The notes below the pieces were generated by a model. The model made no database searches. It was not told where the DNA came from and worked only from the letters and a program-made list of their open reading frames with translations. This document shows, piece after piece, positions 1 to 32,690 of a stretch of 64,000 nt of DNA. Numbering within the stretch: the stretch's first letter is position 1; every line of letters begins with the position of its first letter. This stretch comes from Gammaproteobacteria bacterium (GTDB lineage: Bacteria > Pseudomonadota > Gammaproteobacteria > S012-40), in contig JAOUMY010000007.1 in NCBI GenBank assembly GCA_029881255.1, positions 62,001-126,000 of the forward strand, written 5' to 3'. The position numbers were made by a program, and so were the translations under genes.

Positions 1-1
1 T

Positions 2-940: not shown

Positions 941-953
941 AAAAAAAGAAAAT

Positions 954-981: not shown

Positions 982-989
982 GCGATTGC

Positions 990-6520: not shown

Positions 6521-8341
6521 ATGCAAAAATTTGCAAAAACGAGAATCGCCGCGCTGGCAACGCTAGTGCTTAGCGGCGGTATGTTGGTGGGTTGTGGTGA
6601 TGACGTTCAGGTGCCTAAGGCTAGTGCGACTGATAGCGTTATCGTCAATCCTGTGGCGACCGTTACTGGTCAAGTCACAGATGCAATGACTAATCAAGGC
6701 GTAGCTGGTGTAAGAGTTATCCTTGAAGGAGTCAACATGAGTGCTACCACGGATAGTCGTGGTTATTACAAGATTGAGGGTGTTCCTGCTTCTCAAGGCG
6801 TTAATGGTGCCGGTGGTACCACGTATGACGTAACATTGGATGGCAGCGGTGCGACTGGATACCCTGGTATTGTACCGCAAGGCCCTTCTATTACCGTTAG
6901 GGCTTCTGCTTCTAATGGTGGTGCTGTTGGCGAAACAGGGTTGGTAGTTGCTGGCCAAGATTTTCAAATTGGTCAAGCAATCGTTTCCATCACTGGTAAT
7001 GTCTACGATGAAGACAACGTTACGGTCTACGCGGGTACCGATACGATTTCAGTAGAACTGTACAAGAACGGTGTTCTTTCAGAAATTAAATCGGTATCAC
7101 CAGGTAGCAAATTCAGCTTTACTAAAGTTGAAATGCTAGGCGGCGGTCAATATGACTTGGTTGCCAAGACCAAGACGATGATGGGTGGTTTGACTATCCA
7201 GGCTGCACACATTCAGGAAAAGCGCGATTATGACACCGATACAGGTGGTCATCTCGCGCTGCAAATGTCTATCAAGAACGTTGCGCCTGATATCGCAAAA
7301 GTCTTCCCACCAAATGGCCATGACTTTGGTTCGACCGACACAGTTACTGTAACTCTACACTTCAGTGAACCTATGGGTGCTGATGCCGCTAGTTACCGCG
7401 ATTCTACCTCAGTTGGCGGCGCCTTGTATGAAGACATTATCGTTACTTACGATGGTCCAAAAGCAGGTGAGATTTCCAAGACTTTGACTTGGAATACTGC
7501 AGACTATTCAGAGTTAGCGGTAACGATTGACAGTGCAGCTCCTGGCCGCATGTACACCATCGACTATGCTGGCCTCCACGGAAACCTGGAAGATGAATAC
7601 GAAAATACATTAGACCTGACTGGTAGTGCTACCGCAGCAACCTATACGGTTGCATATGGTGACACGGCTCCCACTGCACCTACAACTGTTGCCGTCGTTG
7701 ACGATATTTCTGCCGCTGACAGTAATTCATTGGGCGCAGGTGTCGGTATAGATTTGTATTGGACTAGAGTCGATGGTGCTAATAGCTATAAGGTATTTAG
7801 AACAGCAAGCGTTGATGGAGTTGACCACACTGTTCAGGTCACCACAGTGGTTGGTGCTAATACTTTCCACGACACTCTAGTAGATGCTACCGCTCATAAC
7901 GGTGTTGACGTACTGGTTGATGACGACAACAATGCCGTAAGTTACAAGTGGAGTGTAATGTCTGTAAACGGTGATGGTCTTGTCAGTGCTATGTCTGGCG
8001 ATTCAAACAAGACGTTAGCGGATGTAACTGCACCAGCGAGCATCACTGCAACATGTATACTTAACGCATCCGGCTACGGTGGTTCGGTGATTAGAATTTC
8101 ATTCGCTGAGCCTGTAGTTCAAGCGGCAGCAGAAACATTTGCTAACTACACAGGTTTACCAAGCGGTCAGAAATATTTGGAGTATGATATCGTCAACGCA
8201 CGGGTAGATATTGGGTACGATGACGCAACGGCTCCTGTTTGTACCGTAGGTGGTGGTGACGACAACGTGACTGCCGGCGTAGCTATAACCGACGTCGCAG
8301 GTAATGCACCAGGTGCTGGCTTGGCCGCACCAGCGTTCTAA
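6521..8341 (+). CDS. Large lipoprotein with carboxypeptidase-regulatory-like and Ig/FN3-like domains
   Basis: 606 residues. The signal peptide ends in a lipobox (GGMLVGCGDD), so the mature N-terminal Cys is probably lipidated. Residues about 48-130 form a carboxypeptidase-regulatory-like beta-sandwich (VTGQVTDAM, GVAGVRVILEG, DSRGYYKIEGVP), possibly repeated at 155-235. A bacterial Ig-like part (about 255-370; VFPPNGHDFG, HFSEPMG) and a fibronectin-III-like part follow. RBS AGGAGAG precedes the ATG. No enzymatic motif. Likely a surface or periplasmic adhesion or scaffold protein. Confidence 0.7.
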   Translation: MQKFAKTRIAALATLVLSGGMLVGCGDDVQVPKASATDSVIVNPVATVTGQVTDAMTNQGVAGVRVILEGVNMSATTDSRGYYKIEGVPASQGVNGAGGTTYDVTLDGSGATGYPGIVPQGPSITVRASASNGGAVGETGLVVAGQDFQIGQAIVSITGNVYDEDNVTVYAGTDTISVELYKNGVLSEIKSVSPGSKFSFTKVEMLGGGQYDLVAKTKTMMGGLTIQAAHIQEKRDYDTDTGGHLALQMSIKNVAPDIAKVFPPNGHDFGSTDTVTVTLHFSEPMGADAASYRDSTSVGGALYEDIIVTYDGPKAGEISKTLTWNTADYSELAVTIDSAAPGRMYTIDYAGLHGNLEDEYENTLDLTGSATAATYTVAYGDTAPTAPTTVAVVDDISAADSNSLGAGVGIDLYWTRVDGANSYKVFRTASVDGVDHTVQVTTVVGANTFHDTLVDATAHNGVDVLVDDDNNAVSYKWSVMSVNGDGLVSAMSGDSNKTLADVTAPASITATCILNASGYGGSVIRISFAEPVVQAAAETFANYTGLPSGQKYLEYDIVNARVDIGYDDATAPVCTVGGGDDNVTAGVAITDVAGNAPGAGLAAPAF

Positions 8342-8373
8342 ACCTAGTTTCTATAGCTGGTTAACGAGATATA

Positions 8374-8402
8374 AACGGCGGGCTTTGCCCGCCGTTTTTT
8401 TT
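8374..8402 (+). terminator. Rho-independent terminator
   Basis: GC-rich stem AAACGGCGGGC/GCCCGCCGTTT followed by a run of Ts, 33 bases after the lipoprotein stop. Confidence 0.9.
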
Positions 8403-8461
8403 ATAGATAACGCTCTATTATCGTGTTACGGTAATTCTCACTGCACGAACTCGGTACATCA

Positions 8462-9706
8462 ATGATACGTTCAATCTTTTTAATTCTCGTCTCAGTTGTT
8501 TCCCTATCCAGTTGCTCTTTCTTTTCCAAAAACTGGACCTTCATCGTCTATCTCGACGGAGACAACGATCTCGCGCCATATAATCTTCAAGACCTCGAAG
8601 AGATGAAGACAGGCATACAAGTGGACAATATCCGTGTACTCGTGCAATTCGATCAACCCGATGGCGTCACCGCCAAGCGTTATGAAATCACCGAGAAAGG
8701 AATGACCGAGTTAGAGGACATCGGCGAAGTCAATATGGCCGATGAACAAACTCTCACCGATTTTCTGGTGTGGGCAAAAGGAAGATTGAACAAGCCGGAT
8801 CATACCATTTTGATTTTGTCCGATCATGGCAATGGTTGGGATCAGACTATCGGTCCATCGCCAGCGGAAAAAGTTGGTCCACGATCTTTGTTTAATGACT
8901 GGGACAACGGCGTAATCAAAATGGCAATGCACAATCATCGCGTGCGTACCGCTATCGAAGCCTCTGGCATCAATATCAATGTTCTCGGCCTGGATGCCAG
9001 CATCATGGGTACTATCGAGGCTATCTATGAATTTTCCGATTTGGCGGAAGTCGTCATCTCTTCGCAAGAAGTGGGATACCAAATCGGCTGGGACTACACC
9101 AATGTCTTTGCGCGCTTATCAAAAGATCCGAAGATGAGCATAGACGAATTCTCTTCGATAGTCGTCGACAGCTATCGTCGCCAATTTGAAGAAGTGCTTT
9201 ATCCATCAGGCATCGAAACCAACGACAAGCTCTACACACTTGCCGCGCATCGCAGCGAAGGTGTCAAAGCGCTGGCAACCGCATTAGGTGACTTTGCGTC
9301 CAGCACCAAAGCGGCGCTGGCAGATACAGCGAATAATGCAGAACTCATCACCGCACTGCAAACCGCGCGCGAAAATGCACAGCATATCGATTTTTATAAC
9401 CAGCCACGGGTCTATGTCGATATCAAAGATTTCTTTGCCAAATACGATAACACCAGCAATATTCCGGCACTGTTAGATCAAGCGACAATTGCGAGCTACC
9501 ACGGCGCAGACCGACCAGACGCAAACGGGCTATCCGTAGTGTTTTTCAAACTACGCAGTGACGGCTCGAACAACACCTATGACGTGAATTATAAAAACTG
9601 GGATGCAGACACAGCGACGGGTAACAAAGGACGCTTCATTAATGAATTTGAGTGGGACGAAATGCTCTATCTATACAATTCTCAGTCATACCCGACGTTG
9701 TTCTAA
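8462..9706 (+). CDS. Clostripain-like (peptidase C11) protein with Ser at the catalytic Cys position
   Basis: 414 residues with a hydrophobic, lipobox-like N-terminus (SLSSCSFF). The clostripain fold is shown by WTFIVYLDGDNDL, the catalytic-His block ILSDHGNGW (His about 122) and LGLDASIMG. In active C11 enzymes the last block is DACxMG; here the codon at 8999-9001 is AGC (Ser180). The remaining conserved parts (SSQEVGYQIGWDY) are intact, so this is either a pseudoenzyme or a Ser-variant. It follows the large lipoprotein gene after a terminator, so it is probably transcribed separately. Confidence 0.8.
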   Translation: MIRSIFLILVSVVSLSSCSFFSKNWTFIVYLDGDNDLAPYNLQDLEEMKTGIQVDNIRVLVQFDQPDGVTAKRYEITEKGMTELEDIGEVNMADEQTLTDFLVWAKGRLNKPDHTILILSDHGNGWDQTIGPSPAEKVGPRSLFNDWDNGVIKMAMHNHRVRTAIEASGININVLGLDASIMGTIEAIYEFSDLAEVVISSQEVGYQIGWDYTNVFARLSKDPKMSIDEFSSIVVDSYRRQFEEVLYPSGIETNDKLYTLAAHRSEGVKALATALGDFASSTKAALADTANNAELITALQTARENAQHIDFYNQPRVYVDIKDFFAKYDNTSNIPALLDQATIASYHGADRPDANGLSVVFFKLRSDGSNNTYDVNYKNWDADTATGNKGRFINEFEWDEMLYLYNSQSYPTLF

Positions 9707-9953
9707 AAGCCGTTCTGGTGAATTGTGAACGTTATTTGATTCCAGTGGGTCGCACTTTTTCTCTCCAGCATATGTGGCAACTTTTCGCTGGTAAGCTAAT
9801 GTTGTCTGGTTTCTATACACCATATTCATACAGTGCATAGTCAATTGCACGGAAAGCATGTCTGCAATGAGTGGCATAGGAATTCTTTGTTCCCAGGCAA
9901 ACAAGATCAAATAGCTGTGATGACGGTAAAAGGGAAATACATGTGAAGAAAGA

Positions 9954-10029
9954 TGGCTCCCCGGGCCGGACTCGAACCAGCGACCCAATGGTTAACAGCC
10001 ATTTGCTCTACCGACTGAGCTACCGGGGA
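9954..10029 (-). tRNA. tRNA-Asn (GTT)
   Basis: 76 nt on the minus strand, CCA encoded. The cloverleaf is readable: acceptor TCCCCGG, D-arm GCTCAGTCGGTAGAGC, anticodon GTT in the loop CTGTTAA, and T-loop TTCGAGT. Confidence 0.96.
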
Positions 10030-10078
10030 ATAGGACGCGTATACTAACGATGCTTTTCGCGTCGGTCAACCAGAAATT

Positions 10079-11251
10079 TTAATTAAGGGCTTTTTCCAAA
10101 CGATCTAAGGCCTTGTTTAGGTTATCTAAAGACGTTGCAAAAGACAGACGCATATATCCCGGTGCACCAAACGCTGAACCGGGCACCAAGGCCACTCCAG
10201 CTTCTTCCAATAGCCATTCAGCCAGCTCCAGATCGTCTTTCATACCCTTGGCCTTGATTGCACCACTGAAGTCCGGAAACAGATAAAACGCGCCCTGGGC
10301 TGGGATGCAGCGAACACCTTTCAAGTTATTAAGACGCTTCAGGACCACGCCATGGCGTTCTTCAAAGGCCGTTAACATCATCGTTATACATGACTGATCG
10401 CCCTCTAGCGCGACCTGTGCCGCGACCTGGGAAATCGATGTCGGGTTAGATGTGCTCTGCGACTGAATCGTCTTCATACCTTTAATGATATCTTTGGGTC
10501 CAGCGGCATAGCCGATACGCCAGCCTGTCATGGAATAGGCCTTGGACACGCCATTGAGCACAATCGTCTGCGATAGTAGTTCAGGGCAAACACTCAATAT
10601 ATTGGTATATGGCGTACCTTCCCAGGCGATGGCTTCATAGATATCGTCAGTGACGACCAGCACTTTGGGGTGTTGTAGTAGCACATCGGCCAGGGCTTGT
10701 AGCTCTTGTTCTGAATAAATCGCGCCTGTCGGGTTGGAAGGGCTGTTGATGACAACCATGCGCGTACGATTGGTAATCGCGGCCTTCAATTGTTGAGGCG
10801 TGATTTTAAAACCAGCGTCGATACCTGCCTCGACTATTACGGGTGTTCCCTCTGCCAGTTCCACCATCGGTGGATAGGATACCCAATAGGGAGCAGGGAC
10901 AATGACCTCGTCTCCGGTATCGAGTACCGCCTGACACAGGTTATAAAAACTGTGCTTGCCGCCGCAGGATACCAGTATTTGGTCAGGCGTAAAGGTAAGT
11001 TTATTGTCTCTTGCGAATTTGCTGATGATGGCCTTTTTCAGCTCTGCTGTCCCGTCCACCGCCGTGTATTTGGTAAAACCGTTGTTAATGGCCGCAATCG
11101 CCGCGTCTTTGATATGTTGCGGGGTGTCAAAATCCGGCTCACCGGCACCCAGGCCTATGATATCCTTGCCCTCCGCGCGCAAAGCGGCGGCTCGAGCGGT
11201 GACTGCCAATGTCGGCGAAGGTTTGAGGTTTTTTGCGCGTTGGGAGAGCAT
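10079..11251 (-). CDS. aspC: Class I aspartate aminotransferase (type 1b)
   Basis: 390 residues. PLP-dependent transfer of the amino group between aspartate and 2-oxoglutarate. The N-terminal GLGAGEPDFDTP, the NSPSNPTGA block and the PLP lysine in SKAYSMTGWRIGYA match the prokaryotic type 1b subgroup, and the length is normal. Close paralogues include other aromatic or LL-DAP transaminases, so the substrate is the least certain point. Confidence 0.88.
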   Translation of the reverse strand: MLSQRAKNLKPSPTLAVTARAAALRAEGKDIIGLGAGEPDFDTPQHIKDAAIAAINNGFTKYTAVDGTAELKKAIISKFARDNKLTFTPDQILVSCGGKHSFYNLCQAVLDTGDEVIVPAPYWVSYPPMVELAEGTPVIVEAGIDAGFKITPQQLKAAITNRTRMVVINSPSNPTGAIYSEQELQALADVLLQHPKVLVVTDDIYEAIAWEGTPYTNILSVCPELLSQTIVLNGVSKAYSMTGWRIGYAAGPKDIIKGMKTIQSQSTSNPTSISQVAAQVALEGDQSCITMMLTAFEERHGVVLKRLNNLKGVRCIPAQGAFYLFPDFSGAIKAKGMKDDLELAEWLLEEAGVALVPGSAFGAPGYMRLSFATSLDNLNKALDRLEKALN

Positions 11252-11366
11252 TGGGGGCTATGAGTCCTCTAGTCAAATTGTCCAGTACAAAACTGGCGTA
11301 ATATAGCAAGACTCGTAATCAAAGTGCACTATAGATTCAGCCTTATCGACAATACGGGGATGCCGC

Positions 11367-13382
<2,016 letters not shown>

Positions 13383-13460
13383 TCGTATTTGTTCGTTCTT
13401 ATTTGCCAGCGATTTCTTTCGCATGGCAACTCAAAGTAACTCAGAAGATTGTAGACGAAA

Positions 13461-13487
13461 AAAACGGCTCCTAAAAGGAGCCGTTTT
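13461..13487. terminator. Bidirectional Rho-independent terminator
   Basis: Perfect stem AAAACGGCTCC/GGAGCCGTTTT with a 5-base loop, and A- and T-rich flanks on both sides. It lies between convergent uvrB and the PEP-CTERM gene. Confidence 0.9.
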
Positions 13488-13509
13488 CATTTGAAACGAA
13501 TCGCGAGAA

Positions 13510-14805
13510 TTACTTCTTAGATTTTCTTCTTCTTGCGGCAACCGTCATACCGATTAAACCTGCACCAAACAATGCAAGTGAAGCGGGCTCTGGCGCGTTC
13601 GCATCAGGTACGAATACACTGATTGGGTTTTGCGTCATTGTGACATTGCCAACGCCCATAAAAGAAAGACCAGTTACGAAAGCGGTTGGATCAGCAGGAT
13701 CAAGGCCAGCAGAAATCTCTATGCCACGAATGCTGAAACGGCTCAGACCGGCGGCATCGATGGTAGTTAGGTCGAAAGTGACACCACCTTCAATATCGTA
13801 GCCGGAGTCAACATATTCTGTGCCGTTCCAAAAGTATAGATCATAAAAGTTGTCGCCATAACCCGCTGGCAAAGTAACGCTAGCGAAGTTTGGTCCAGTA
13901 GTGATTTCATAATCATAACCAACGGCGATGTCCGGATCGATCCAGATAGTCTGGTTTGGTACTGTAATTTCGAAGTCAAACACAAAACCTTCATCGACAA
14001 TAACGATTTGAGGTAGCAAAGGCGCGTCCGCAGATGAACCATCTGAGGTAACGCCATTGCGTATCGCCATCGTCCACAAACCCGGTGATAAGACGCTTAC
14101 ATTACTCGTTGCAGCTAGATTCAAAATGTCAGCACTTAAAGAACCAGGGAGGGAAAGAAACTGACCCGCGCCTGAATCATAACCGGCTGATGCTGGCGTA
14201 CCACCGAACCCATTTGAACCGCCGCTGAAATCACCAGTTGTCCACTGCAACTGGTTATAACGGAACTCGATGTCAAAATCCCCGGTATTGATATCGGAAC
14301 GATCATGAAGAATCATCTGGAAATCGTTAAGCTTGTCTACATGGTTAGAGTAGTAGCCAACATTGCTCCAGGTAATGACCATAGTCTCCGCGTTGGGTGC
14401 GGCAACGTAGATTTCTCCACACGTGGCACAGCGAGTATCAACGTCTGCCCAGAAAGGCGCAATGATGGGTGTTGCGGTGCTTGCACCGGTAAATGCGCTT
14501 GGCGTAAAGGTGCTGAGCGAATTCCCAAAAGAGATGTTTCCGTTGGTATTGATGAAGAAATTGTTATAGGCGGTGCCAAAAAAGTTAACCTCGAATAGCG
14601 ACCTTGATGAACTTGAGCCATCATCGTTACGCCAGAAGGTTGCTCCCTCATCGAGCGTTAAGGCATAGTCACCATACCCCGTCGGACCACCTAAACCATC
14701 AAGCAATGCAATCGCATGACTTGTCGAAGGTAATACAAAGCCAGCAAACGCAAGCGCGCTTAGCGACAATTGCGTTAGCAGCCTTTTTGGACTTTTCTGT
14801 AGCAT
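13510..14805 (-). CDS. PEP-CTERM surface protein with nidogen-like (NIDO) domain
   Basis: About 431 residues from the ATG at 14805, which has GAGGAG upstream; the extension to 14919 lacks signal-peptide character. The signal peptide ends at about PSTSHA. Residues about 40-190 resemble a NIDO domain (FFINTNGNISFG, PIIAPFWADVDTR, ITWSNVGYY). The C-terminus is a PEP-CTERM sorting signal: PEPASLAL, a hydrophobic helix, then ARRRKSKK. Proteins of this class are cut by exosortase and displayed at or shed from the surface. A sigma-54-like promoter lies upstream. Confidence 0.88.
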   Translation of the reverse strand: MLQKSPKRLLTQLSLSALAFAGFVLPSTSHAIALLDGLGGPTGYGDYALTLDEGATFWRNDDGSSSSRSLFEVNFFGTAYNNFFINTNGNISFGNSLSTFTPSAFTGASTATPIIAPFWADVDTRCATCGEIYVAAPNAETMVITWSNVGYYSNHVDKLNDFQMILHDRSDINTGDFDIEFRYNQLQWTTGDFSGGSNGFGGTPASAGYDSGAGQFLSLPGSLSADILNLAATSNVSVLSPGLWTMAIRNGVTSDGSSADAPLLPQIVIVDEGFVFDFEITVPNQTIWIDPDIAVGYDYEITTGPNFASVTLPAGYGDNFYDLYFWNGTEYVDSGYDIEGGVTFDLTTIDAAGLSRFSIRGIEISAGLDPADPTAFVTGLSFMGVGNVTMTQNPISVFVPDANAPEPASLALFGAGLIGMTVAARRRKSKK

Positions 14806-14844
14806 TTTGCACTCCTCTATTGATTGTTGATTTTGTATGATGAT

Positions 14845-14860
14845 AGCAATTTGTGAACCA
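14845..14860 (-). promoter_or_regulatory. Sigma-54-like promoter of the nidogen PEP-CTERM gene
   Basis: On the minus strand TGGTTCACAAATTGCT has the GG-N10-GC layout of -24/-12 promoters. Its -12 element is about 40 bases upstream of the chosen ATG. Confidence 0.5.
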
Positions 14861-15045
14861 AGCAATAAATGACAATAAAAACAAATGGTTGTAATGCTCA
14901 TGTGATTCTTGGAGTTCAATTATGTAAAATTACCCGACAAACAGAGATGGATATATTTTATATGGGTAGAAAAAATTCCTATGTTGGCAATATGAATCAA
15001 TAGCAAGTATCTTTCGTGCACAGGCTTGCTGATCAAGAGGGAATT

Positions 15046-15438
15046 GTGTTGAAAAAACTGATAATGATTTGTTGTTTGTTTTTCATTCAATCAAGTGCGT
15101 TTGCATTCACTGCAGGAGAGTTGGCTGAGCAGTGTCGGGTTACTCAGCAGAAGTTGCCCGAGAAAGAGGCGGGTGAGAAGGCTATAAAGCGCTTTCTGGA
15201 TACCGGAACTTGCGCTGGTTATGTTGGCGGCGTCATCGCCGGTGTGAACCTGGCTGGTGCGATGATGATGGAACAGAAAGTCATGAAGACCAATTTCATC
15301 TGCATGCCACGTAAATATCATGCACAGCAACTGGTGAAAATGTTTTTGGACTATATGGACGAAAATAAGAAATATGCCAAAGAGTCTGCACAGCTTACGG
15401 TTTACAACGTATTTCGCAAGCGCTTTCCATGTAAATAG
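15046..15438 (+). CDS. Secreted Rap1a/Tai-like protein
   Basis: About 130 residues. The signal peptide runs to about SSAFA. The mature part carries spaced cysteines and the pattern FLDTGTCAGYVGGVIAG ... FICMP ... FLDYMDENKKYA, as in the Rap1a immunity-like family (Tai type). The start is a GTG (15046) or TTG (15049) after AGAGGGA; the longer reading from 15016 is unlikely because it puts charged residues before the signal peptide. Family members can be immunity proteins for T6SS amidases, but no effector gene is adjacent, so the role here is open. Confidence 0.6.
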   Translation: MLKKLIMICCLFFIQSSAFAFTAGELAEQCRVTQQKLPEKEAGEKAIKRFLDTGTCAGYVGGVIAGVNLAGAMMMEQKVMKTNFICMPRKYHAQQLVKMFLDYMDENKKYAKESAQLTVYNVFRKRFPCK

Positions 15439-15495
15439 TCTGGCGAAGCTATTGTGTAGCCTCTGGGCATATGTTATTTTTCGCCCTCAATTTTT

Positions 15496-23116: not shown

Positions 23117-23345
<229 letters not shown>

Positions 23346-23499
23346 ATTTACTTGAATTCTGAGTCCTTGCCCGTTAGATACTCCGTGTTTATACCTTTCT
23401 ACGCTTCGAGGATTCCCGGCCAACCTGCGGTTGGCGTTCAGCCAGCTGCGAAATGACATTAGGTCATTTCGGTCTGGCTTCACCCTCTCGCCCCGACCA
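23346..23499 (+). repeat. tRNA-Pro-linked repeat, unit 2 (hairpin type B)
   Basis: 154-bp unit in tandem with unit 1. First hairpin GCCAACC TGC GGTTGGC (perfect); second hairpin GAAATGAC ATTAG GTCATTTC at 23450-23470, extended by GCCAG/CTGGC. It shares the linker and the tRNA-Pro 3' end with unit 1, but the stem sequence of the second hairpin is entirely different. Confidence 0.85.
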
Positions 23500-23554
23500 A
23501 TAGATTCAAATTCTTATTATCATTCTAAGGATGTCGGCTTTTTCTTCTTGAAAA

Positions 23555-23577
23555 ATATTATCGAATTCCGATAATAT
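23555..23577. promoter_or_regulatory. HigA operator, perfect 9-5-9 palindrome
   Basis: ATATTATCG AATTC CGATAATAT, ending 6 bases before the toxin start. Antitoxins of this family usually repress their own promoter by binding such a palindrome. Confidence 0.65.
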
Positions 23578-23583
23578 CTGTAT

Positions 23584-23874
23584 ATGATAATTTCGTTTGG
23601 GAATACGTTAGCTGAGGACCTGTACTTCGATAAGAAGTCGAAGGAGGTTCGAAAATTTCCAAAGGATATTCACCGGGTTGCGAGACGCAAACTGCTCTAT
23701 TTGCATGATGCGGGAGACCTAGACGATTTGCGTGTGCCGCCTGGAAATCGATTGGAGAGACTGAAGGGAGATTTGTCAGGGTTCCATTCGATACGAATCA
23801 ACGATCAATGGCGGGTGATATTCAAGTGGGAAAACGGGAATGCAAGTGAAGTTACCATCGTTGATTATCATTGA
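23584..23874 (+). CDS. higB: HigB-type toxin (RelE/ParE superfamily)
   Basis: 96 residues. Ribosome-dependent mRNA interferase type, recognised by LKGDLSGFHSIRINDQWRVIFKW and the C-terminal VTIVDYH, with matching length and the toxin-first gene order. The ATG lies only 6 bases after the operator palindrome and has no clear Shine-Dalgarno. The antitoxin gene follows 20 bases later. Confidence 0.92.
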   Translation: MIISFGNTLAEDLYFDKKSKEVRKFPKDIHRVARRKLLYLHDAGDLDDLRVPPGNRLERLKGDLSGFHSIRINDQWRVIFKWENGNASEVTIVDYH

Positions 23875-23894
23875 AGAATTAAAGGTGATACGAA

Positions 23895-24164
23895 ATGAAA
23901 GAACCTAAGAATCCATTTCATCCTGGAGAAATTCTACTAGAAGAGTTTCTTGAGCCAATGGAAATGTCACAAGCAGCCTTTGCTAAGAAGCTGGGTTGGA
24001 CTACAACACGCCTCAATGAACTGATCAAAGGGAAGCGTGGGATTACGGCCGAATCAGCCTTGGATCTAGCTCAGGTATTGGGTACTACTCCGAAGCTATG
24101 GATGAATCTGCAGGCAACATGGGATTTGGCTAAGGCGGTAGAACGTCGGAATAGGGCGGCGTAG
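23895..24164 (+). CDS. higA: HigA-type antitoxin (HTH Xre family)
   Basis: 89 residues. HPGEILLEEFLEPMEMSQ begins the HTH domain, and LNELIKGKRGITAESALDLA covers the recognition region. It neutralises the upstream toxin and represses the operon. RBS AAAGGTGAT. Confidence 0.94.
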   Translation: MKEPKNPFHPGEILLEEFLEPMEMSQAAFAKKLGWTTTRLNELIKGKRGITAESALDLAQVLGTTPKLWMNLQATWDLAKAVERRNRAA

Positions 24165-24275
24165 AGACTAGTAGAATGGACATGTAAATTATTGTTCCTT
24201 GTCGCACGATATTGTCTGATATTGCAATTCAGTGAAATAATGAAAACAAATAGATAGAGTGATGTAGTCGCCTAA

Positions 24276-24308
24276 ATGGGGTTGTGGGGGACGGAGGATC
24301 AAATCCTC
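24276..24308 (+). pseudogene. Degenerate tRNA-Pro 3'-half remnant
   Basis: ATGGGGTTGTGGGGG then ACGGAGGATCAAATCCTCT aligns with the anticodon loop to T-arm of the intact tRNA-Pro, with a few substitutions. It then jumps into the middle of the repeat (GTTAGATACTCCG). It is a trace of an older tRNA-plus-repeat duplication. Confidence 0.75.
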
Positions 24309-24313
24309 TGCAA

Positions 24314-24438
24314 GTTAGATACTCCGTGTTTACGTCTTTCTTCGCTTCGAGGATTCCCAGCCAACCTGCGGTTGGCGTTCGAAGAACTGCGTTTGTCCAC
24401 TGGACAAACGGTTTCTTCTCACCCTCTCGCCCCGACCA
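24314..24438 (+). repeat. tRNA-Pro-linked repeat, unit 3 (type A, 5' truncated)
   Basis: Same as unit 1 from GTTAGATACTCC on. Hairpin 1 is GCCAACC TGC GGTTGGC; hairpin 2 GTTTGTCCA/TGGACAAAC is at 24391-24409. It ends with the tRNA-Pro 3' end at 24422-24438. Confidence 0.85.
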
Positions 24439-24592
24439 TTTTACCCGAATTCAAATTCCTGCACGTTAGCGAAACCGAGTATACGACTTTCTTCGCCTCG
24501 AGGATTCCCGGCCAACCTGCGGTTAGCGTTCAGCCAGCTGCGAAATGACATTAGGTCATTTCGGTCTGGCTTCACCCTCTCGCCACGATACA
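24439..24592 (+). repeat. tRNA-Pro-linked repeat, unit 4 (type B)
   Basis: Same as unit 2, with hairpin 2 GAAATGAC ATTAG GTCATTTC at 24542-24562. The terminal tRNA-like end is decayed (CTCTCGCCACGATACA). Units 3 and 4 repeat the A-then-B order of units 1 and 2. Confidence 0.85.
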
Positions 24593-25606
24593 CAAATCAA
24601 AGTGTGTGCAATGATCTGCTACTAACTGGGCCCCACTTCCGGCTACACTCTAGAGTTCTAGGGCAAATAACTTCCAGCGTGCCTATGTAGTCTCACTCGT
24701 GATAGATCGCATAGATACCGACTGGGTATATAAGGCTGTGTTGTAACAATCAATATTGTCTAGTGGGAATGTAGACAGTCCCCAGATTCATTTTTGAAAT
24801 GAACCGAACGCGGGAGGCTAGTTCTAGCTATAAAAGTATTAAGTCAGGAAAGCCGAGAATCTCTTCCCTTATTAATGGTGGGTGCGCAACAGGCGGCAAC
24901 AATGCTAAAGATGGCGTGATAAAAAATTCGCGGTATAAGTCCGCAGTACCATGGGCCAGTACTAGCGTTTATCGCTAAAACACGAATCAGCTGAGCCTAT
25001 CCGATTTGACGGATACTCAAGCCATGGGAAATTGGCCGAAATAAGAATGTTATATTTGAACGAGAATTCGACACCGCTATTTTGACGAAGAAATATAAGA
25101 TTGAGGCGGTAAAACAGGGTACAAACAGCAGCAAAAAGGCTCGACAAATGATCATGGGCGAGATGCAGAATACATTTATGGCTGACCCAGAATCCCTCAT
25201 CTTTCAGCCAGTCACGGAAATGATGATTACGGTAGAAGGAAGGATTAAATTGTTTGTCTTGCTCGACTTCGATCCTAACTAAAACGGAGTAATAGTTCCT
25301 AAGCAGTAGAATTATCTCCGTTATATTGCAATAAGAAAAATGAATAGAAATAACGTCTTTAAACTATTCAAGAAAAATTATCGCGCTGATATAATCCACC
25401 CAGAATGGGGCTATTCTGAAAATTATAAGCATAACTTTTAGCTGCATCCATAGAAGAAGCTAGATAAAAATAAAGTCACGGATGCTGTATTGTACTAGGT
25501 AGTATGGCTGCAACTTCAAATGTTACAAGGTATATTGCTTGCCTGTTCCGGCGCGTGGATATTAGTACGCGTTGGTGCAACTCAAAACACATAATGGACT
25601 AGGTGT
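24593..25606. other. 1-kb region without a convincing gene
   Basis: No frame with good start context and protein-like composition. A palindrome TTCATTT TTG AAATGAA lies at 24787-24803. A 66-codon frame at 25082-25282 begins like an IS3-type OrfA but does not continue as one. This may be decayed mobile DNA. Confidence 0.4.
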
Positions 25607-26365
25607 GTGGTGAGTATTATTGCAGGCTTTAACTATCATAATCTTACTCCTGTTGTCGGGGAGATCACACCGACGTTCGCACGATTTTTATATCTGAGTG
25701 AGATTCCCTGCCGCGTAAGCGCATCAAGCGCTGCCTTAAGCGCATTTCTATATCACCTAACCCCGGATACTGTTGGTGATGCCTACATGGTTGCATTGAC
25801 GACATTCAATCGACTGTTTCCCGAAACTCCTGTATTTGTTACCGCAGATTTTAATAACCAGAATTTAATACTAAATGCATTTCGTGCCACCAAGGTCTAT
25901 GAGTTTGGCATTCTGCCTATGGAAATTGAATTTCTGCGTCAAAGTATAAGCAGGGTGATAGAGCATGAGCCATCAACAGTGGTAGAGCGGGACAAGGAGT
26001 CTGATACTATTCTGGTTACTGGTCTAAGCAAGGAAATACAGCAAATAGTCCTATATATTGACCAACACTATCAGAATAGAATGCCGGTTGAATTTATCTC
26101 GAGTCTTTTCAATATGAGCCCAGATAATTTTTCACGAAAATTCAGCAAAGAACTAGGTATGTCTTTTCGAGAGTACCTCAAGACGATTCGTCTACAACAA
26201 GCACACTATCTATTACATAACACCTCCCTGTCTATTGAGGAAATTGCATTTCGGGTTGGTTTTAGTGATCCCTCACTGTTTTCGCGTATGTATTATGCAA
26301 AATACATGATACGACCTTCAATTTGTCGTCGTGACAAACGTTTGGCTGCTTCTTCAGGAAGTTAA
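25607..26365 (+). CDS. AraC-type regulator with degenerate receiver-like N-terminus
   Basis: 252 residues, GTG start. The C-terminal half is a double-HTH AraC domain: VEFISSLFNMSPDNFSRKFS, then SLSIEEIAFRVGFSDPSLFSR. Residues about 50-120 resemble the second half of a response-regulator receiver (FPETPVFVTA ... VYEFGILPMEIEFL), but no clear phospho-acceptor Asp block is seen, so phosphorylation is doubtful. Its 3' end overlaps the convergent barrel gene by 4 bases. It may control the neighbouring minus-strand cluster; this is inferred from position only. Confidence 0.75.
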   Translation: MVSIIAGFNYHNLTPVVGEITPTFARFLYLSEIPCRVSASSAALSAFLYHLTPDTVGDAYMVALTTFNRLFPETPVFVTADFNNQNLILNAFRATKVYEFGILPMEIEFLRQSISRVIEHEPSTVVERDKESDTILVTGLSKEIQQIVLYIDQHYQNRMPVEFISSLFNMSPDNFSRKFSKELGMSFREYLKTIRLQQAHYLLHNTSLSIEEIAFRVGFSDPSLFSRMYYAKYMIRPSICRRDKRLAASSGS

Positions 26366-26943
26366 TACCAGTAGTTTAAAGATAGACCCAGTGCAGCGAC
26401 ATAATGCTCAGATCGTTCGCCATTGTTGACATTTTCACCATTGGGGAAATAGCGAAACTGGTAAAAGCGACCATACCCTGAGAGAGAAAGGCGTGAATGT
26501 AGCGAAACATCTACGCCGAGGCTAAAGTTGGCGTCACAACAAGCACTCTCCTCTCCGGAAAAACCAAGGGTTTCGATGGAATTCAGTGCATCCAACAAGT
26601 CAATGGCGAATTTTGCATACGGTGCTATTCGATTAGGCCCCTGAACTAAAAAAATGCCATAAAGTGGATAGTAATTGTTTTGCGTAAAGTCCAGTGGTTT
26701 GTTGTAAAAGTGGATTCGACTAAGGCCAAGGCCAACTGCTGCCTTCATGTATTCATTGCGGCCAAACCAAAGTTTCGAAGCGCCAAAAGTATTGATTCCG
26801 CTTCCAGATTCATAAAAAATATCGATGCCTTGTGTTAATTCGGTCGGTGCTTTGGTAGTCGTTAGCAAGGTATCCGCAGCGAAACAGGTTTGTGATGTTG
26901 TGAAGATAATGACTAGTATAATTGGTACAAATACGCGCATCAT
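26362..26943 (-). CDS. Small outer-membrane beta-barrel candidate
   Basis: 193 residues. Signal peptide ending about TCFAAD; the body has alternating strands with glycines and aromatics (GLGLSRIHFYN, YGRFYQFRYF) and ends in an aromatic C-terminal strand (ALGLSLNYWY), as outer-membrane barrels do. Last gene of the cluster, 15 bases after the upstream lipoprotein. Family not recognised. Confidence 0.55.
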   Translation of the reverse strand: MMRVFVPIILVIIFTTSQTCFAADTLLTTTKAPTELTQGIDIFYESGSGINTFGASKLWFGRNEYMKAAVGLGLSRIHFYNKPLDFTQNNYYPLYGIFLVQGPNRIAPYAKFAIDLLDALNSIETLGFSGEESACCDANFSLGVDVSLHSRLSLSGYGRFYQFRYFPNGENVNNGERSEHYVAALGLSLNYWY

Positions 26944-26958
26944 ATTGCTGTCTAGATC

Positions 26959-27999
26959 CTACTCTTTTGTTTGTTCAACCGTAGCAAACCCTACCTGCTG
27001 GTTTAATGAATTAGTTGGTAGCAAATGCTGTAGCAGGCTATCCATAGCAGTTTTCCAGGGATAAGTATTTAGATCACCCAATTCCTCAATGTTATAGTTT
27101 TGTTGTGAGGCACCGCTGACTAAGAAGGTATTCTGTTCTATCGTAGTGAGAGCTGCAATACCCTCTACAGCCCCGGCAATCACATTTCCTTTCCGGTCAT
27201 ATATCAAACCCTTGAGCGCAACTGTAGTGAAAGGGGATACCCCACTAACGGGGCTCGGAGTTTGTAACTTTGAGCCAAGATAAAGCGTGTTGCCAGCATT
27301 GGCAGCTACTTGCTTCAGCTTATCCCGGATTGAATTTTTTGCATCTAACCCTTCAAGCAACATATTTGGCTGAGAAGAGACATCAATGATACCGATACTT
27401 ATATCAAGAATATATTCAGGTATATCGTCATGGTAATTCTCTAAAAAATACCGATACCATTTACCTGAACCTTTGACGAGGGTTAGCATGGATTCCGTGC
27501 TATCAGGCGCGCTACCTGAGCGTCGCCAATCGGGCCCCAATACATGTTCAGGCCTGCCATAGTGAATTCTTGGTAGATCGATTAGTAAAAGTGAATTGGT
27601 GTTCTCGGGACTATATGTTTCAACAAGGCCATGCTGAGGCCACTTTGGCCATTGATGAGTATAGCGCTCAAGGACTCGCCCCGATAATTTCTGTTGCAAG
27701 TATTGGGACAAGAGGGGTAGCGCATTTGAAAGATAGTTGTACATATTGGAGTCACGTAATGATTCAACTTCAATCAGAGGATCTACATGCACTGGAAAGT
27801 AGCCCACCTCCCCGGCGGCTGTTCCCATCGGAATATAATATGGAGGACGTAGGACTTTTCTGTTGAATACGAGTCCACTATCTGATGCATTTGACCACTG
27901 CAGAGTGCAGGCGTTGAGTAGTGTCAAACATCCTAGCATTGCGATACCAGTAATTCTATTGGTGCCTTTCTCAAATTGAGTTTGGATCAGGTGAAACAT
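26959..27999 (-). CDS. Putative lipoprotein of the envelope cluster
   Basis: 346 residues. The hydrophobic N-terminus ends in a lipobox-like TLLNAC (a start at the internal Met before LGCLTLLNAC is possible). No known domain recognised. The 5' end overlaps the 3' end of the 654-aa gene by 29 bases, indicating translational coupling. A likely outer-membrane-anchored partner of that protein. Confidence 0.55.
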   Translation of the reverse strand: MFHLIQTQFEKGTNRITGIAMLGCLTLLNACTLQWSNASDSGLVFNRKVLRPPYYIPMGTAAGEVGYFPVHVDPLIEVESLRDSNMYNYLSNALPLLSQYLQQKLSGRVLERYTHQWPKWPQHGLVETYSPENTNSLLLIDLPRIHYGRPEHVLGPDWRRSGSAPDSTESMLTLVKGSGKWYRYFLENYHDDIPEYILDISIGIIDVSSQPNMLLEGLDAKNSIRDKLKQVAANAGNTLYLGSKLQTPSPVSGVSPFTTVALKGLIYDRKGNVIAGAVEGIAALTTIEQNTFLVSGASQQNYNIEELGDLNTYPWKTAMDSLLQHLLPTNSLNQQVGFATVEQTKE

Positions 28000-29935
28000 A
28001 TTTAAATATCCTTTCTTTTACTTTCAGTTCAAGCTTCTGATTAGCGATACTTAGTAGGAAAGATTCGTTTTCCGGGTAAATCGATGTGGCGTTTGCGATG
28101 ACATCGATCAAAGCGATTTGTAAGGTTGCTGACTCTGCTCCTTGATCAATTTCTTTTTGTAATTGATCTTTTGACCAATTACTAATTTCTAAATTCCCAC
28201 TAAAAGGAACCAAGGCCAATACGCCTGCCGCTTTTACGCTATAGCTTTTTTCCTGGCTAAAATGCGCTGTAAAGGTGTCAAATGCGTCGCTCGACTCTAT
28301 CGTAGCAATGGCCTGGTAGGCCGCACTTCGTACATCTTCGCTGCTATGTCCTAAAAAAATGGCAATTGTCGATATAGACGCAGGGTTTTGTGAATTCTTC
28401 AAACTATGTAGCAATACTACTAACTGCTCTTCGTCGCTACTTTGTGCTAGTTTGTTGCTGAGTTGGTCGACAATATGTTCTGGATTAGACTCCACCGATG
28501 CTTTGGACGGATGGGCTAAGGATCCTAGTGCGAACAGTGTAATATCTTGGTATTCGACAGAATTTTCACTGAGTTGCCAGAGTCCATCAATAGTTAGTTT
28601 ACTGGGAACGTCAATTGAATGCATGGCGGCCAGAGCGCGGGATCGGGTGGAGTCGGCGGAGTACCTATCCATGGCAGTAGCAAGCAGAGCTGCCTGATTT
28701 TCCTTCATTCCAGCTTTAGCAATCGCATACCATAGAAATAGTTCTTCTCGTTGTACAAGACCAGAGTTCTGCATGTTTAGTTTGGTAATTATTGAGGTAC
28801 TAGCATCAGGGTTTTTTCGGAGATAGTTAATCATAAAGTCACGGGCAAGGTTTTCAAAATTGGGGTCCAATAGCTGACTGATATAGAATTCAATGGCCTC
28901 ATCGGGCGACTTTCCTAGGGCAAGTGCATCCAATTCAGGAATTGTCTTAAGACTACTAAAATCTAATGTTTTAGTTTTGTTTAGCGCACTATTCAATTGG
29001 GTAAAGCTATCTGGAAACTTAAAGGCAGCATAGCGTTGAGTTCGTTTAGCTGTGAACTTTCCTTTTACTTCGCTGAAAATTGTGCCATCTACGAATGTTT
29101 GGGTTTTCTCTTCACCTTTGATGGCGTTTATCCAACCAGTTTTTGTGTCAATTTGCAAGTTTGTTAAGGATTCGGGAATTTCGATATTGGTGCGGGCAAT
29201 ACCGTTTGAAAACAATTGCAAATATTTTGTTCTTTGTTTTTCCATTTGCCAAAGTTGATCTTGATGAATATTGAAATTCTTGTACGAGGCGACATATTTC
29301 CCTAGATGGTCGCTTTCCTGTACTGCCCACTGACTTCGTTTGTCGATCGGGCTGATGAATTGAAATTGACGAATGGTTTGTTGAATATACTGTGACGCAT
29401 CAGCGGTAGCCTCGTTATGTATATTAATAGCATAAATTTCGCCGTTGTTTTTTAATTTGAAGGAAAATGGGTTTGCAAGATCGTCAATATATGATACTGG
29501 AGCATTGTTTATGTTTAGAGTACGAATGCGGATAAAACCACCAAATTCCCAGTATTTTTCGTGCTTCTCATAAACATGAAGGATGAGTACGCCGTATGAA
29601 TACAAATCAATATCTGATTGTGTGCTAGTACTATTCCCGATAATCAGTTTTGAGGAATCCAACCAGCCATTGGCTTGAGACACAAAATCAAACGCCAATT
29701 CTTCATTTTTATTAAAGTTTGGTTTGTATAGAAGATCTGAAGAATTCAATCCTACTGACACTGGTTGGATATCTATATTGGTAAAAGTATTTGGAGTAGT
29801 TTGAATGTTTGGTTTTTGTTCATTTTTTGAGAATTCGGTAGGTATTTCCTCTTCGTAATACACAAGATAGTACGCTGCGGCCACAAAAGCTGATGCGATT
29901 AGAGTAACTCGAGCTAAATTTTGATATTTTTTCAT
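27971..29935 (-). CDS. Membrane-anchored protein with large-lipid-transfer-like (vitellogenin N-type) architecture
   Basis: 654 residues. One N-terminal membrane segment (VTLIASAFVAAAYYLVYY) is followed by a beta-rich region (about 60-310; LQLFSNGIARTNI, DTKTGWINAIKG) and a long helical, HEAT-like region (about 330-650; EEQLVVLLHSLKN, FLGHSSEDVRSAAYQAIATI, SVKAAGVLALVPF). This beta-barrel-then-superhelix order and wording (lists of LKN..., vR.aA..al..i) resemble the N-terminal module of vitellogenin/MTP-type lipid transfer proteins. A generic HEAT-repeat protein is the alternative. No RBS oddity. Confidence 0.5.
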   Translation of the reverse strand: MKKYQNLARVTLIASAFVAAAYYLVYYEEEIPTEFSKNEQKPNIQTTPNTFTNIDIQPVSVGLNSSDLLYKPNFNKNEELAFDFVSQANGWLDSSKLIIGNSTSTQSDIDLYSYGVLILHVYEKHEKYWEFGGFIRIRTLNINNAPVSYIDDLANPFSFKLKNNGEIYAINIHNEATADASQYIQQTIRQFQFISPIDKRSQWAVQESDHLGKYVASYKNFNIHQDQLWQMEKQRTKYLQLFSNGIARTNIEIPESLTNLQIDTKTGWINAIKGEEKTQTFVDGTIFSEVKGKFTAKRTQRYAAFKFPDSFTQLNSALNKTKTLDFSSLKTIPELDALALGKSPDEAIEFYISQLLDPNFENLARDFMINYLRKNPDASTSIITKLNMQNSGLVQREELFLWYAIAKAGMKENQAALLATAMDRYSADSTRSRALAAMHSIDVPSKLTIDGLWQLSENSVEYQDITLFALGSLAHPSKASVESNPEHIVDQLSNKLAQSSDEEQLVVLLHSLKNSQNPASISTIAIFLGHSSEDVRSAAYQAIATIESSDAFDTFTAHFSQEKSYSVKAAGVLALVPFSGNLEISNWSKDQLQKEIDQGAESATLQIALIDVIANATSIYPENESFLLSIANQKLELKVKERIFKYVSPDPNSI

Positions 29936-30028
29936 GGTGTAATATAAATAGTTTGAATTTAATTTGTCCGAACAGACAAAAATTGTGTGGCTTAGGTGTA
30001 ATTTTGAGAATTATTTCTGCTTTTTGAA

Positions 30029-30057
30029 TGAAGTGCCGCTTGACTAGCGGCACTTCA
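30029..30057. other. Strong intercistronic hairpin
   Basis: TGAAGTGCCGC/GCGGCACTTCA, perfect 11-bp stem with a 7-base loop, between the 310-aa and 654-aa genes. Neither strand has a following T-run, so it may stabilise or partly terminate the message rather than act as a full terminator. Confidence 0.6.
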
Positions 30058-30090
30058 GACAACAGGACATAGCGTCTCAAAAAGATATTG

Positions 30091-31023
30091 TTACGCTGCG
30101 CCAAACGACTGTGAATATTGTTTCAAATTCCACTTTTGAACTATGCCGCCAAAACTGATCATGGTTGCCTTGTAGATAGTCGTCCAATAAGTACCACAAG
30201 GGTATTTGATACCCCATTTAGAACAAAGTTTAACATTCTTTACGTCTCCAAATACGCCAATTTCGCCTTTCAGCGAATTGACTTGCCCCGGCAGTCCTGC
30301 GCTCAATGTGGCGCCTGTAACATTGACTAGCGCACTTGCTGCCATGTTCTGCTCGATACCTAGCAAAGTAAGCCACCCATAAATACCACCCCTGGCAAAA
30401 GCCAAACTGACATTACCGTTTACAATGGCGTCTAGTTTGGCATAGGGGCCGTAGTTGAAAGTTAGTTGTGAGGAAGCTAACTGTTTAAAATTCAGGGATC
30501 CTTTAGCACCAGCTTCACCTCGCAGCCCCGCTTGGATATTAAACGGAATTGGACCAAGAGGAATTGGAATGGACGTTGTCGTTTGTGTCCATAGTACCTG
30601 TGTTTCCTTTCCTAAAGCATCTTTGGTGCTCCAATCTGAACCACTTAGTATGTCTTTGTTGGCGCTCCAATAGGTCTTAGACAGAATTTGAACGTTGTAG
30701 TCGTAGTGTGCAAGTGCGGTAGGGGAAAAGATATTAACAGCAGCTTTTCCACTGACATTCGCAACACTCCAGTCTTTCAATACTTTAACGTTAACGAAAT
30801 TATTTGTTCCAGCATGAAAGGCATAGGGAATTCCAGCTTGTTGTGCGTAGCTTATATCAAATCCGGTTTCGTAGTTCGATCCAAAATATTTGTTTCCGAA
30901 TTTATCTGCCTTTTTTGCTGTAGTAATTTTGACGTCATATGGCCCGAAGTGACTAACCGCTACTGCAAAAGCGTTCTGCACGGATGCTATGACCAATACC
31001 AAAAGCAATAATGTTTTATACAT
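30091..31023 (-). CDS. Secreted beta-rich protein of unknown function
   Basis: 310 residues with a clear signal peptide (ending QNAFA). Mature part: long amphipathic beta stretches rich in Gly/Ser/Asn (GLRGEAGAKGSLNF, ATLSAGLPGQVNSLKGEIGVFG) and one Cys pair near the C-terminus (KLCSKWGIKYPCG). No family recognised. Second gene of the cluster, 71 bases after the first. Confidence 0.55.
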   Translation of the reverse strand: MYKTLLLLVLVIASVQNAFAVAVSHFGPYDVKITTAKKADKFGNKYFGSNYETGFDISYAQQAGIPYAFHAGTNNFVNVKVLKDWSVANVSGKAAVNIFSPTALAHYDYNVQILSKTYWSANKDILSGSDWSTKDALGKETQVLWTQTTTSIPIPLGPIPFNIQAGLRGEAGAKGSLNFKQLASSQLTFNYGPYAKLDAIVNGNVSLAFARGGIYGWLTLLGIEQNMAASALVNVTGATLSAGLPGQVNSLKGEIGVFGDVKNVKLCSKWGIKYPCGTYWTTIYKATMISFGGIVQKWNLKQYSQSFGAA

Positions 31024-31094
31024 TTAAATCCCTCTCTATTATTCTAAAGACAATGCGTCAAACACAAAGTAAGTTATGAGTTACCGATTGCGAA

Positions 31095-32063
31095 CTAATC
31101 GGCATCCAAGGCGATTCTCCAAATCTTATTGTCTGTTTCACTAACTTCGTCTACTAAGTTACGAGAATCTACGCGAGCGTATACGTGAAAATAGCCAAAG
31201 TATTGATTGAGTGCGGTTCTCAAAGGTTCTGTAATCTTTAAACGTAGCGCACCACTGCGGCTCTGTTGTTTTGGAATAACAGGACAATCTACACAACTAG
31301 GTTCAATTTCCCAGCTTTCAGAGTATGTCGTTGATTCGTTTCCTGCAGGGTCTTCGATAGCGACAAGCAGCGGGAAGTCCACACCGTTAATTGTTGCGCC
31401 GAAATCAATAGACACACTTCCAACAGAGTATGGAATATCTTGAACATCCGTTGAAACTTCTAAATTCACCCGGATTTCATCCGTGTCGCTACGCACAACT
31501 CCGCCATTTCCTCCGAATGAAAACTCCGTGGCGCGCAAATTAGGCTTGTCAAGTTGTACTACCTGGACAACATTGGGAAAAAACTTCCAAGATAGGTTGT
31601 TTGGTGTTGTGGTACCATCTGCCAAAATAATTGCATCACCTGAATCTGTTGTTTCAATGTCCACGGGTTGTACGTTTATAGTAAAGATGTAGTTGTCCGG
31701 ATCGACATTATTCGGAAAAGCGAAGGCTGGTGGTCGAACTTTGGCACCATACGTAGAAATATTATCCATTTGAAAGCTCAAAACTACCCTTTGCGGTTCG
31801 ACGCTGTCGTAGTTGGCAAGGTTTTCTTCAAATGTTAGATCTGGGGAAGCCCAGTTAACTCCCACGGTTACTAAAGCATGGGGGATGTCTTGCGTCGGCT
31901 TAATAAAGAATTCGATATCTGTTGGCATTCCTATATAAAAAGTGGTCGATTTAATATAGAAATTTTTGATTTGTATTTCTCCACCTTCCGGAACGATGCT
32001 CCCCTCTGCTATCGCGCATAGCGGTAAAATCAATCCTACGATACAACCTAGTATTTTCCTCAT
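31095..32063 (-). CDS. Secreted protein with CARDB-like beta-sandwich domains
   Basis: 322 residues. The signal peptide ends about CAIAEG. Two similar beta-sandwich regions are suggested (IKNFYIKSTTFYIGMPTDIEFFI and DKPNLRATEFSFGG), plus a closing VDEVSETDNKIWR segment typical of CARDB-type Ig-like domains, and a CVDC motif. First gene of the minus-strand cluster; an inverted repeat lies upstream. Confidence 0.55.
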   Translation of the reverse strand: MRKILGCIVGLILPLCAIAEGSIVPEGGEIQIKNFYIKSTTFYIGMPTDIEFFIKPTQDIPHALVTVGVNWASPDLTFEENLANYDSVEPQRVVLSFQMDNISTYGAKVRPPAFAFPNNVDPDNYIFTINVQPVDIETTDSGDAIILADGTTTPNNLSWKFFPNVVQVVQLDKPNLRATEFSFGGNGGVVRSDTDEIRVNLEVSTDVQDIPYSVGSVSIDFGATINGVDFPLLVAIEDPAGNESTTYSESWEIEPSCVDCPVIPKQQSRSGALRLKITEPLRTALNQYFGYFHVYARVDSRNLVDEVSETDNKIWRIALDAD

Positions 32064-32227: not shown

Positions 32228-32542
32228 TGCAAAGGGTATGCACTTTAACTTGCACTCTATGCTGAACTGATTACTTCAGTCCTCAAAGTTTGTTGCACGA
32301 TGTTGCTAACTTAGCCCATGAATGCTGTATTCCGTTGAAGACTGAGAGAATGCTAACGCAAACAAGAAATCTCAAACCAGGACTTTTCTGGGGTAAAAAG
32401 AGGACTTACTTGGGAGGGAGGGAAACTTATTTTTACAGGTAAGAAGCCCTCTCGTTTTTCAGGGCTGGAACGGAATTGTGTTTTTGGTGAAAAGTGAATT
32501 GGTAATTTAGGTGGGTTTTATTTATTTAGGTCGACGAGATTT

Positions 32543-32640
32543 TCTCGCCCCGACCAATTACCTGAATTCTGAGTCCTTGCCCGTTAGATACTCCGTGTTT
32601 ATACCTTTCTACGCTTCGAGGATCTCCGGCCGACCTACAG
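32543..32640 (+). repeat. tRNA-Pro-linked repeat, unit 5 (truncated), right border
   Basis: TCTCGCCCCGACCA followed by about 80 bases nearly identical to the linker of unit 2 (TGAATTCTGAGTCC ... GCTTCGAGGAT). It degenerates within hairpin 1 (GGCCGACCTACAGTC) and lacks hairpin 2. Confidence 0.8.
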
Positions 32641-32690
32641 TCTGCTTTCGTTAACGTGTCACTCGCTTCTTAGAAATTTCATTTATATAA

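Follow-up and report, generated by a model that had tools for sequence, protein, structure and literature searches.

The DNA analysed here, referred to as the window, is a stretch of 64,000 nucleotides, in which five minus-strand genes lie one after another at 26362-32063 (Table 1). The first-pass annotation had reported these reading frames with an export or anchor signal in each, and both their positions and their signals read as it described. In order of transcription, the genes encode proteins of 322, 310, 654, 346 and 193 amino acid residues. Sec-type signals are found at the N-termini of the 322-, 310- and 193-residue proteins, and a lipobox-like LLNAC at that of the 346-residue protein. 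The spacing of the genes suggests one transcription unit: 71 bases separate the first two and 155 the next two, the genes for the 654- and 346-residue proteins overlap by 29 bases, as reported earlier, and a gap of 15 bases precedes the last. Promoter and terminator scans of the cluster gave matches at chance level only. NCBIfam holds no family for any of the five proteins, and in Pfam the 654-residue protein alone scores, with HEAT_2 and Vitellogenin_N. The last protein is putatively a small outer-membrane barrel, judging solely from its signal peptide, its size and its C-terminal aromatic residues.

Table 1. Features of the locus, in window positions.
Feature	Positions	Strand	Basis or remark
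Left direct repeat (tRNA-Pro 3' end plus about 90 bases)	23332..23439	.	90.7% identical to the right repeat over 108 columns
193-aa putative outer-membrane barrel, local accessory	26362..26943	-	not conserved with the system
346-aa putative lipoprotein, local accessory	26959..27999	-	not conserved with the system
654-aa LLTP N-module protein (Vitellogenin_N-like)	27971..29935	-	PF01347, AF2 model, Foldseek
Predicted helical horseshoe, residues 311-647	27995..29005	-	model; lipovitellin alignment over model 73-642
Asn514 codon	28394..28396	-	invariant in 44 bacterial members; aligns to the lipovitellin LGN Asn
Predicted beta-barrel with inner helix, residues 79-299	29039..29701	-	model; match to apoB barrel 9bd8
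Predicted membrane anchor helix, residues 2-27	29855..29932	-	model; N-terminal positive residues; no clear cleavage motif
310-aa secreted beta protein, putative lipid-binding half of a split LLTP	30091..31023	-	linkage; Haur_5045 one chain; model
322-aa CARDB-like secreted protein, N-terminal neighbour domain of the partner	31095..32063	-	relatives fused to a 310-like domain elsewhere
Right direct repeat, probable island boundary	32543..32649	.	flanks the cluster together with the left repeats

The alignment of the two direct repeats scores 87, compared with at most 14 for random segments of the window. The sequence CTCTCGCCCCGACCA occurs at 23179 (in the tRNA), 23331, 23485 and 24424, and with one mismatch at 32542. 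The repeats enclose the five-gene cluster together with a HigBA-like pair and the gene of an AraC-type regulator at 25607-26365; an integrase gene was not seen in this interval, and Rfam matched the tRNA only. The GC content of the cluster region is 41.7%, versus 46.2% for the whole window. As the cluster is flanked by repeats derived from tRNA-Pro, it is probably island cargo. An island would explain both the sporadic distribution (3 of 144 relatives) and the genes for the 346- and 193-residue proteins being private. The host genome itself has a size of 5 Mb and falls in the same class as the Beggiatoa relatives, which points to a gammaproteobacterium.

Fold of the 654-residue protein

Pfam, an AlphaFold model and Foldseek agree in giving the 654-residue protein the fold of the N-terminal part (N-module) of large lipid transfer proteins (LLTPs), which is how it had been read from the sequence alone. 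The PF01347 (Vitellogenin_N) match reaches 26.1 bits against a gathering cut-off of 24 (E 4e-6). HEAT_2 scores 30.2 bits (cut-off 27.7), and this match is confined to the helical domain. Relatives of the protein score 49-56 bits with PF01347, and in two of them the match forms a single stretch (profile positions 79-567 and 76-526 of 590, 52 and 49 bits, respectively). Because this stretch crosses both the barrel and the helical parts, it indicates more than mere HEAT similarity. A single-sequence search of the PDB returned lipovitellin as its sole match, a weak one (E 0.37). With a profile of the 654-type family, lipovitellin was found at E 2e-7 and MTP at E 0.0015, the latter colinear across 230 residues.

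The AlphaFold model, built from 12 aligned sequences, has a mean pLDDT of 81.9 and a pTM of 0.52. It is laid out as an anchor helix (residues 2-27), a flexible linker, a beta domain (79-299) in which helix 178-189 sits, and a helical superhelix (311-647); the N-terminal anchor is present in nearly all relatives. When 350,542 PDB chains were searched with this model using Foldseek, the first eight places were all taken by LLTPs (E 2e-14 to 1e-6), namely lipovitellin, three chains of MTP, two of honeybee vitellogenin, apoB and the apoB barrel, followed by unrelated armadillo and HEAT proteins from E 1e-5. The lipovitellin match (E 2e-14) extends across 650 columns. VIA aligned 525 residues with lipovitellin over model residues 73-642 (Z 18.4), and the apoB barrel 9bd8 with model residues 69-416 (Z 16.9). 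The rmsd is high (11-18 A), which means that barrel and horseshoe are either arranged differently from those of the known structures or poorly predicted in their relative placement.

These matches bear directly on the possibility that the protein is an ordinary HEAT-repeat scaffold to which an unrelated beta domain is attached, and that its match to vitellogenin is a by-product of HEAT similarity. HEAT_2 is the top Pfam match in several members of the family, and when HEAT regions are compared by sequence, designed alphaReps outscore LLTPs. A profile of the helical part alone ranked alphaReps first, ahead of lipovitellin (E 1e-5), and VIA gave alphaReps a Z of 17.7 against that part of the model. 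With the whole model, however, every HEAT and armadillo protein falls below the LLTPs, the apoB barrel is matched on its own, and PF01347 reaches into the barrel, which contains no HEAT repeats. As far as the model goes, it is the whole-length alignment together with the barrel match that sets LLTPs apart from alphaReps. A plain scaffold is thus already disfavoured, and we consider it very improbable. The structure predicted for the 654-residue protein is that of an LLTP N-module and goes beyond generic HEAT repeats.

Among 44 bacterial members, five residues show no variation (Y218, G471, N514, R536 and A539). Lipovitellin, aligned directly with the protein, has the same residue at G471 and at N514, the asparagine being part of the motif ALGNAG. 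Going only by this motif and an approximate register, N514 may correspond to MTP N479. If so, the split proteins would retain the contact that joins the two halves.

A conserved partner encoded next door

The beta lipid-binding domain of LLTPs is absent from the 654-residue chain, and the candidate for it is the 310-residue protein, a member of a beta-domain family without a name, which we call the core. Full-length relatives of the 654-type protein (VitN) occur in the family of the host (31% identity), in other Gammaproteobacteria, and in Magnetococcales, Desulfobacterota and Anaeromyxobacter. Among Myxococcota, the 654-type profile matches 82 of 195 genomes, many with several copies, of which the weak matches may represent HEAT repeats only. 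A scan of genome contigs with a single protein and a plasmid search with the window protein gave no match. Eukaryotic contamination, considered as a source of the DNA, was ruled out by the bacterial neighbours of the genes and by dozens of bacterial relatives.

The 310-type and 654-type genes are adjacent in nearly all loci examined in Gammaproteobacteria, Magnetococcales, Desulfobacterota and Myxococcota. Searches with the core profile placed it in a gene adjoining VitN in 19 of 22 testable loci outside Myxococcota and in 19 of 20 loci within that phylum. In Myxococcota, the core lies upstream of VitN in some loci and downstream in others, so that linkage is kept while gene order changes. Across 116 genomes around one carrier, the core was found in exactly the 8 that have full-length VitN (Fisher p 1.4e-11, a value that overstates significance, related genomes not being independent); the single carrier without a core lies at a contig end. 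A few VitN loci have no detectable partner, and one Halobeggiatoa locus carries an extra gene between VitN and the core.

What recurs in other genomes is limited to the 322-, 310- and 654-residue parts, and the earlier suggestion of a system of five co-occurring genes was not upheld. No relatives of the 346- and 193-residue proteins were found in 27 other genomes (12 from the host's own family and 16 that carry the system, with one in both groups) or near any other copy of the system. Five contiguous genes on one strand, all with export or anchor signals, could be taken for a bridge across both membranes, as the first-pass annotation proposed; the evidence for such a bridge comes down to those signals. 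With two of the genes missing from every tested carrier of the core, a five-gene bridge is largely refuted as a conserved system and has, in our estimate, only a slight chance of being right, while a local function is possible. Of that annotation, then, the LLTP N-module and its 310-residue partner stand, and the five-gene system does not.

The 322-residue protein had been called CARDB-like, a label that is weak. The protein itself has no match to PF07705, and its fused relatives score 19.8-21.2 bits, just under the cut-off of 22.7. In a sister genome, the 322- and 310-residue proteins are syntenic with the 654-type family. In other Gammaproteobacteria, they are fused in one lipoprotein of about 780 residues, and in Magnetococcales, Parabeggiatoa and Desulfamplus, the combined region is continuous inside proteins of 2,471-3,299 residues. 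Since its relatives are fused to the 310-type domain elsewhere, the 322-residue protein is counted as part of the partner. Around the core, large partners carry modules that depend on the host: aspartyl-protease-like, PD40, carboxypeptidase-regulatory, LamG, PA14, crystallin and I36. An outer-membrane barrel was also considered for the 310-residue domain, since such barrels turn up among its fold matches; it is disfavoured because the domain occurs in lipoproteins and in central positions of chains of 2,471-3,299 residues.

Partners of several thousand residues with variable C-terminal modules are also what an adhesin or toxin system might contain, in which the HEAT protein would confer immunity to, or process, a secreted polymorphic protein; HEAT-like proteins are mentioned in connection with polymorphic toxin loci (PMC3482391). 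However, the modules found are lectin- or adhesin-like and none is a toxin domain, the conserved element is the central core, and the 654-type family is membrane-anchored. We therefore judge such a system highly unlikely.

A lipid-binding beta-sheet had been raised earlier for the 310-residue protein, and its model (8 aligned sequences), consisting entirely of long strands, is compatible with one at low confidence (pLDDT 52.5). Foldseek against the same 350,542 chains placed two MTP chains first (E 8e-5 and 1e-4), with the third place at 7e-3, lipovitellin fifth and another MTP tenth. VIA aligned 222 residues to MTP 568-882, the lipid-binding part of MTP; outer-membrane barrels reached similar or higher Z over shorter stretches. 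Core profiles found no LLTP among PDB sequences. An MTP-like fold of this domain, as predicted, is the weakest link in the argument. The 310-residue protein can nevertheless be regarded as the conserved partner of the 654-residue protein and plausibly as its lipid-binding beta half.

Both bacterial parts are found together in Haur_5045 (ABX07675.1), an 862-residue protein encoded on plasmid pHAU01 of Herpetosiphon aurantiacus (Chloroflexota). It scores 56 bits with Vitellogenin_N and 92 bits with the bacterial 654-type profile. Its residues 628-858 match an enlarged core profile at 56 bits, and the C-terminal part alone at 60, compared with 9.5 bits for the best of 4000 shuffled sequences. On these profile matches, Haur_5045 is one chain with the order barrel, helical, beta. 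This single-chain architecture was seen in Haur_5045 alone; the window and nearly all other hosts have separate genes. A phmmer search with Haur_5045 gave nothing useful, and no study of the protein was found in the open-licence PMC literature. Databases thus already contain bacterial members with an automatic lipid-transport annotation, that of Haur_5045 reading 'Lipid transport protein domain'.

A proposed split lipid transfer protein and its possible origin

In animals, apoB, LDL and the yolk proteins receive lipid through LLTPs; lipid traffic in the bacterial periplasm is an open field. Domain order, size, co-occurrence and the match of the partner model to MTP agree, and we therefore read the pair as a bacterial split LLTP, in which the 654-residue N-module and the 310-residue lipid-binding half dock as a lipid-binding unit (probability about 0.62). 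The 654-residue protein would be tethered in the inner membrane with its barrel and horseshoe facing the periplasm. The 310-residue protein, with its 322-residue companion domain, would supply the third LLTP domain, the lipid-binding beta-sheet, as a separate exported polypeptide. After docking in the periplasm, the horseshoe would cradle the beta-sheets of the partner, as in single-chain MTP, and the pair would complete a lipid pocket at the outer face of the inner membrane, from which lipid may be drawn. This lipid might be loaded onto the exported partner or leave with it, or be moved towards the outer membrane or the cell surface. In hosts whose partner is a lipoprotein or a very long chain with lectin-like modules, the lipid-binding unit would lie within an outer-membrane or surface protein.

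The same arrangement could also describe a docking platform or export chaperone, the tethered barrel and horseshoe serving a beta-rich partner while no lipid is carried. The barrel and helical domain of MTP mediate protein-protein contacts with apoB and PDI (PMC3337244), and the secreted partners, which are often very large and carry modules such as LamG, PA14 or crystallin, may depend on a chaperone of their own. Against this, what is conserved in the partner is its MTP-like beta domain, the modules vary and the partner in the window has none, and the 862-residue chain of Herpetosiphon holds both parts, which leaves nothing else to chaperone. We regard a chaperone as the less probable explanation, at perhaps one chance in a few, and retain the split LLTP as the preferred one.

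LLTPs are treated as an animal superfamily in the open-licence PMC literature, where we found no report of bacterial LLTPs; a 2012 review that discusses MTP as a forerunner of lipid transport outside the cell nowhere mentions bacteria (PMC3337244). The breadth of the bacterial family and the low identity between its clades (15-30%) suggest, at the level of sequence, that its age in bacteria is considerable. The direction of evolution is a matter for more tentative argument. It is conceivable, if rather doubtful, that the animal LLTPs (MTP, vitellogenin and apoB) arose from a bacterial lipid-loading system of two genes, which animals acquired in a fused form like Haur_5045. The ancestral system would have been the one widespread in Myxococcota, a tethered N-module and a secreted partner, sometimes of thousands of residues, forming apoB-like lipid carriers. 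A bacterial split LLTP could place the origin of the animal lipid-loading machine among bacteria. If this is true, the two-gene form and its one-chain homologue would give the LLTP superfamily a testable origin, make small and soluble stand-ins for MTP available and extend the bacterial envelope by a lipid-handling system.

Comparison with known lipid transfer proteins

The window proteins are classified here as LLTP-like split parts, distinct from a canonical LLTP. Compared with apoB-100, whose N-terminal region (PDB 9bd1, 9bd8) matches the 654-residue protein in both barrel and helical domain, the downstream lipid-belt region is not seen, and large partners with lectin-like modules occur instead. 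Lipovitellin/vitellogenin (PDB 1lsh, 9ens) is the best fold match for residues 73-642 and shares G471 and the LGN asparagine, Asn514. Unlike lipovitellin, to which identity is 15%, the window has no single-chain lipid cavity, and further parts of vitellogenin are not seen.

Human MTP has domains at residues 22-297, 298-603 and 604-894 (PMC3337244). The window proteins differ from MTP in being bacterial, in being encoded by two or three genes, of which that for the beta half comes first, and in having an N-terminal membrane anchor; no PDI-like subunit was identified. They resemble it in the fold of the N-module and in the match of the partner model to MTP 568-882. Haur_5045 is homologous to both the 654- and the 310-residue proteins, whereas it is a single chain, comes from Chloroflexota and starts with a signal-peptide-like segment in place of a long membrane anchor. 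It has the same domain order as the MTP large subunit (PDB 6i7s, 8eoj) and nearly the same length, 862 versus 894 residues.

Repeats bounding the cluster and neighbouring genes

The five-gene envelope cluster lies in a 9.3-kb segment of the window enclosed by tRNA-Pro-derived direct repeats of about 150 bases (23179-24600 and 32542-32649), each of which starts with the 3' end of tRNA-Pro and which contain near-perfect palindromes. The segment resembles a tRNA-Pro island in which no integrase is visible. A candidate HigB/HigA pair, read by eye, also sits within it. The gene for an AraC-type regulator, possibly that of the cluster, is convergent with the 193-aa gene and overlaps its end by 4 bases.

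Features in and beside the repeat-bounded segment
Feature	Window position	Basis
Direct-repeat copies	23179, 23331, 23485, 24424, 32542	
HigB/HigA-like toxin-antitoxin pair (two small adjoining genes)	23584-24164	read by eye
AraC-type regulator	25607-26365	HTH_18

Partners of the 654-type gene in other genomes

At locus L075, a single relative of the 654-aa gene has a large partner bearing the core beta domain of the 310-aa protein on each side (1-3318 and 5731-15492), and the genome has five matches to this core. Secreted proteins of unusual size are also linked to the 654-type gene, namely core-bearing open frames of 6,563 codons (G716:C11, around 672687-686661, partly L061) and 4,276 codons (G739:C195, around 56826).

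Surroundings of L076 and of Haur_5045

In frames downstream of the 654-type gene at L076 (11617-14882, the same region as L052), a repeat that reads SPHMRGN / GSIPAHAGEP recurs many times; it may be a CRISPR-like repeat array translated as if it were coding. An IS-type integrase frame is found there too. Within 810-11989 of L127 (Herpetosiphon pHAU01), integrase and transposase genes border Haur_5045, the one-chain bacterial large lipid transfer protein gene; this is again a mobile setting.
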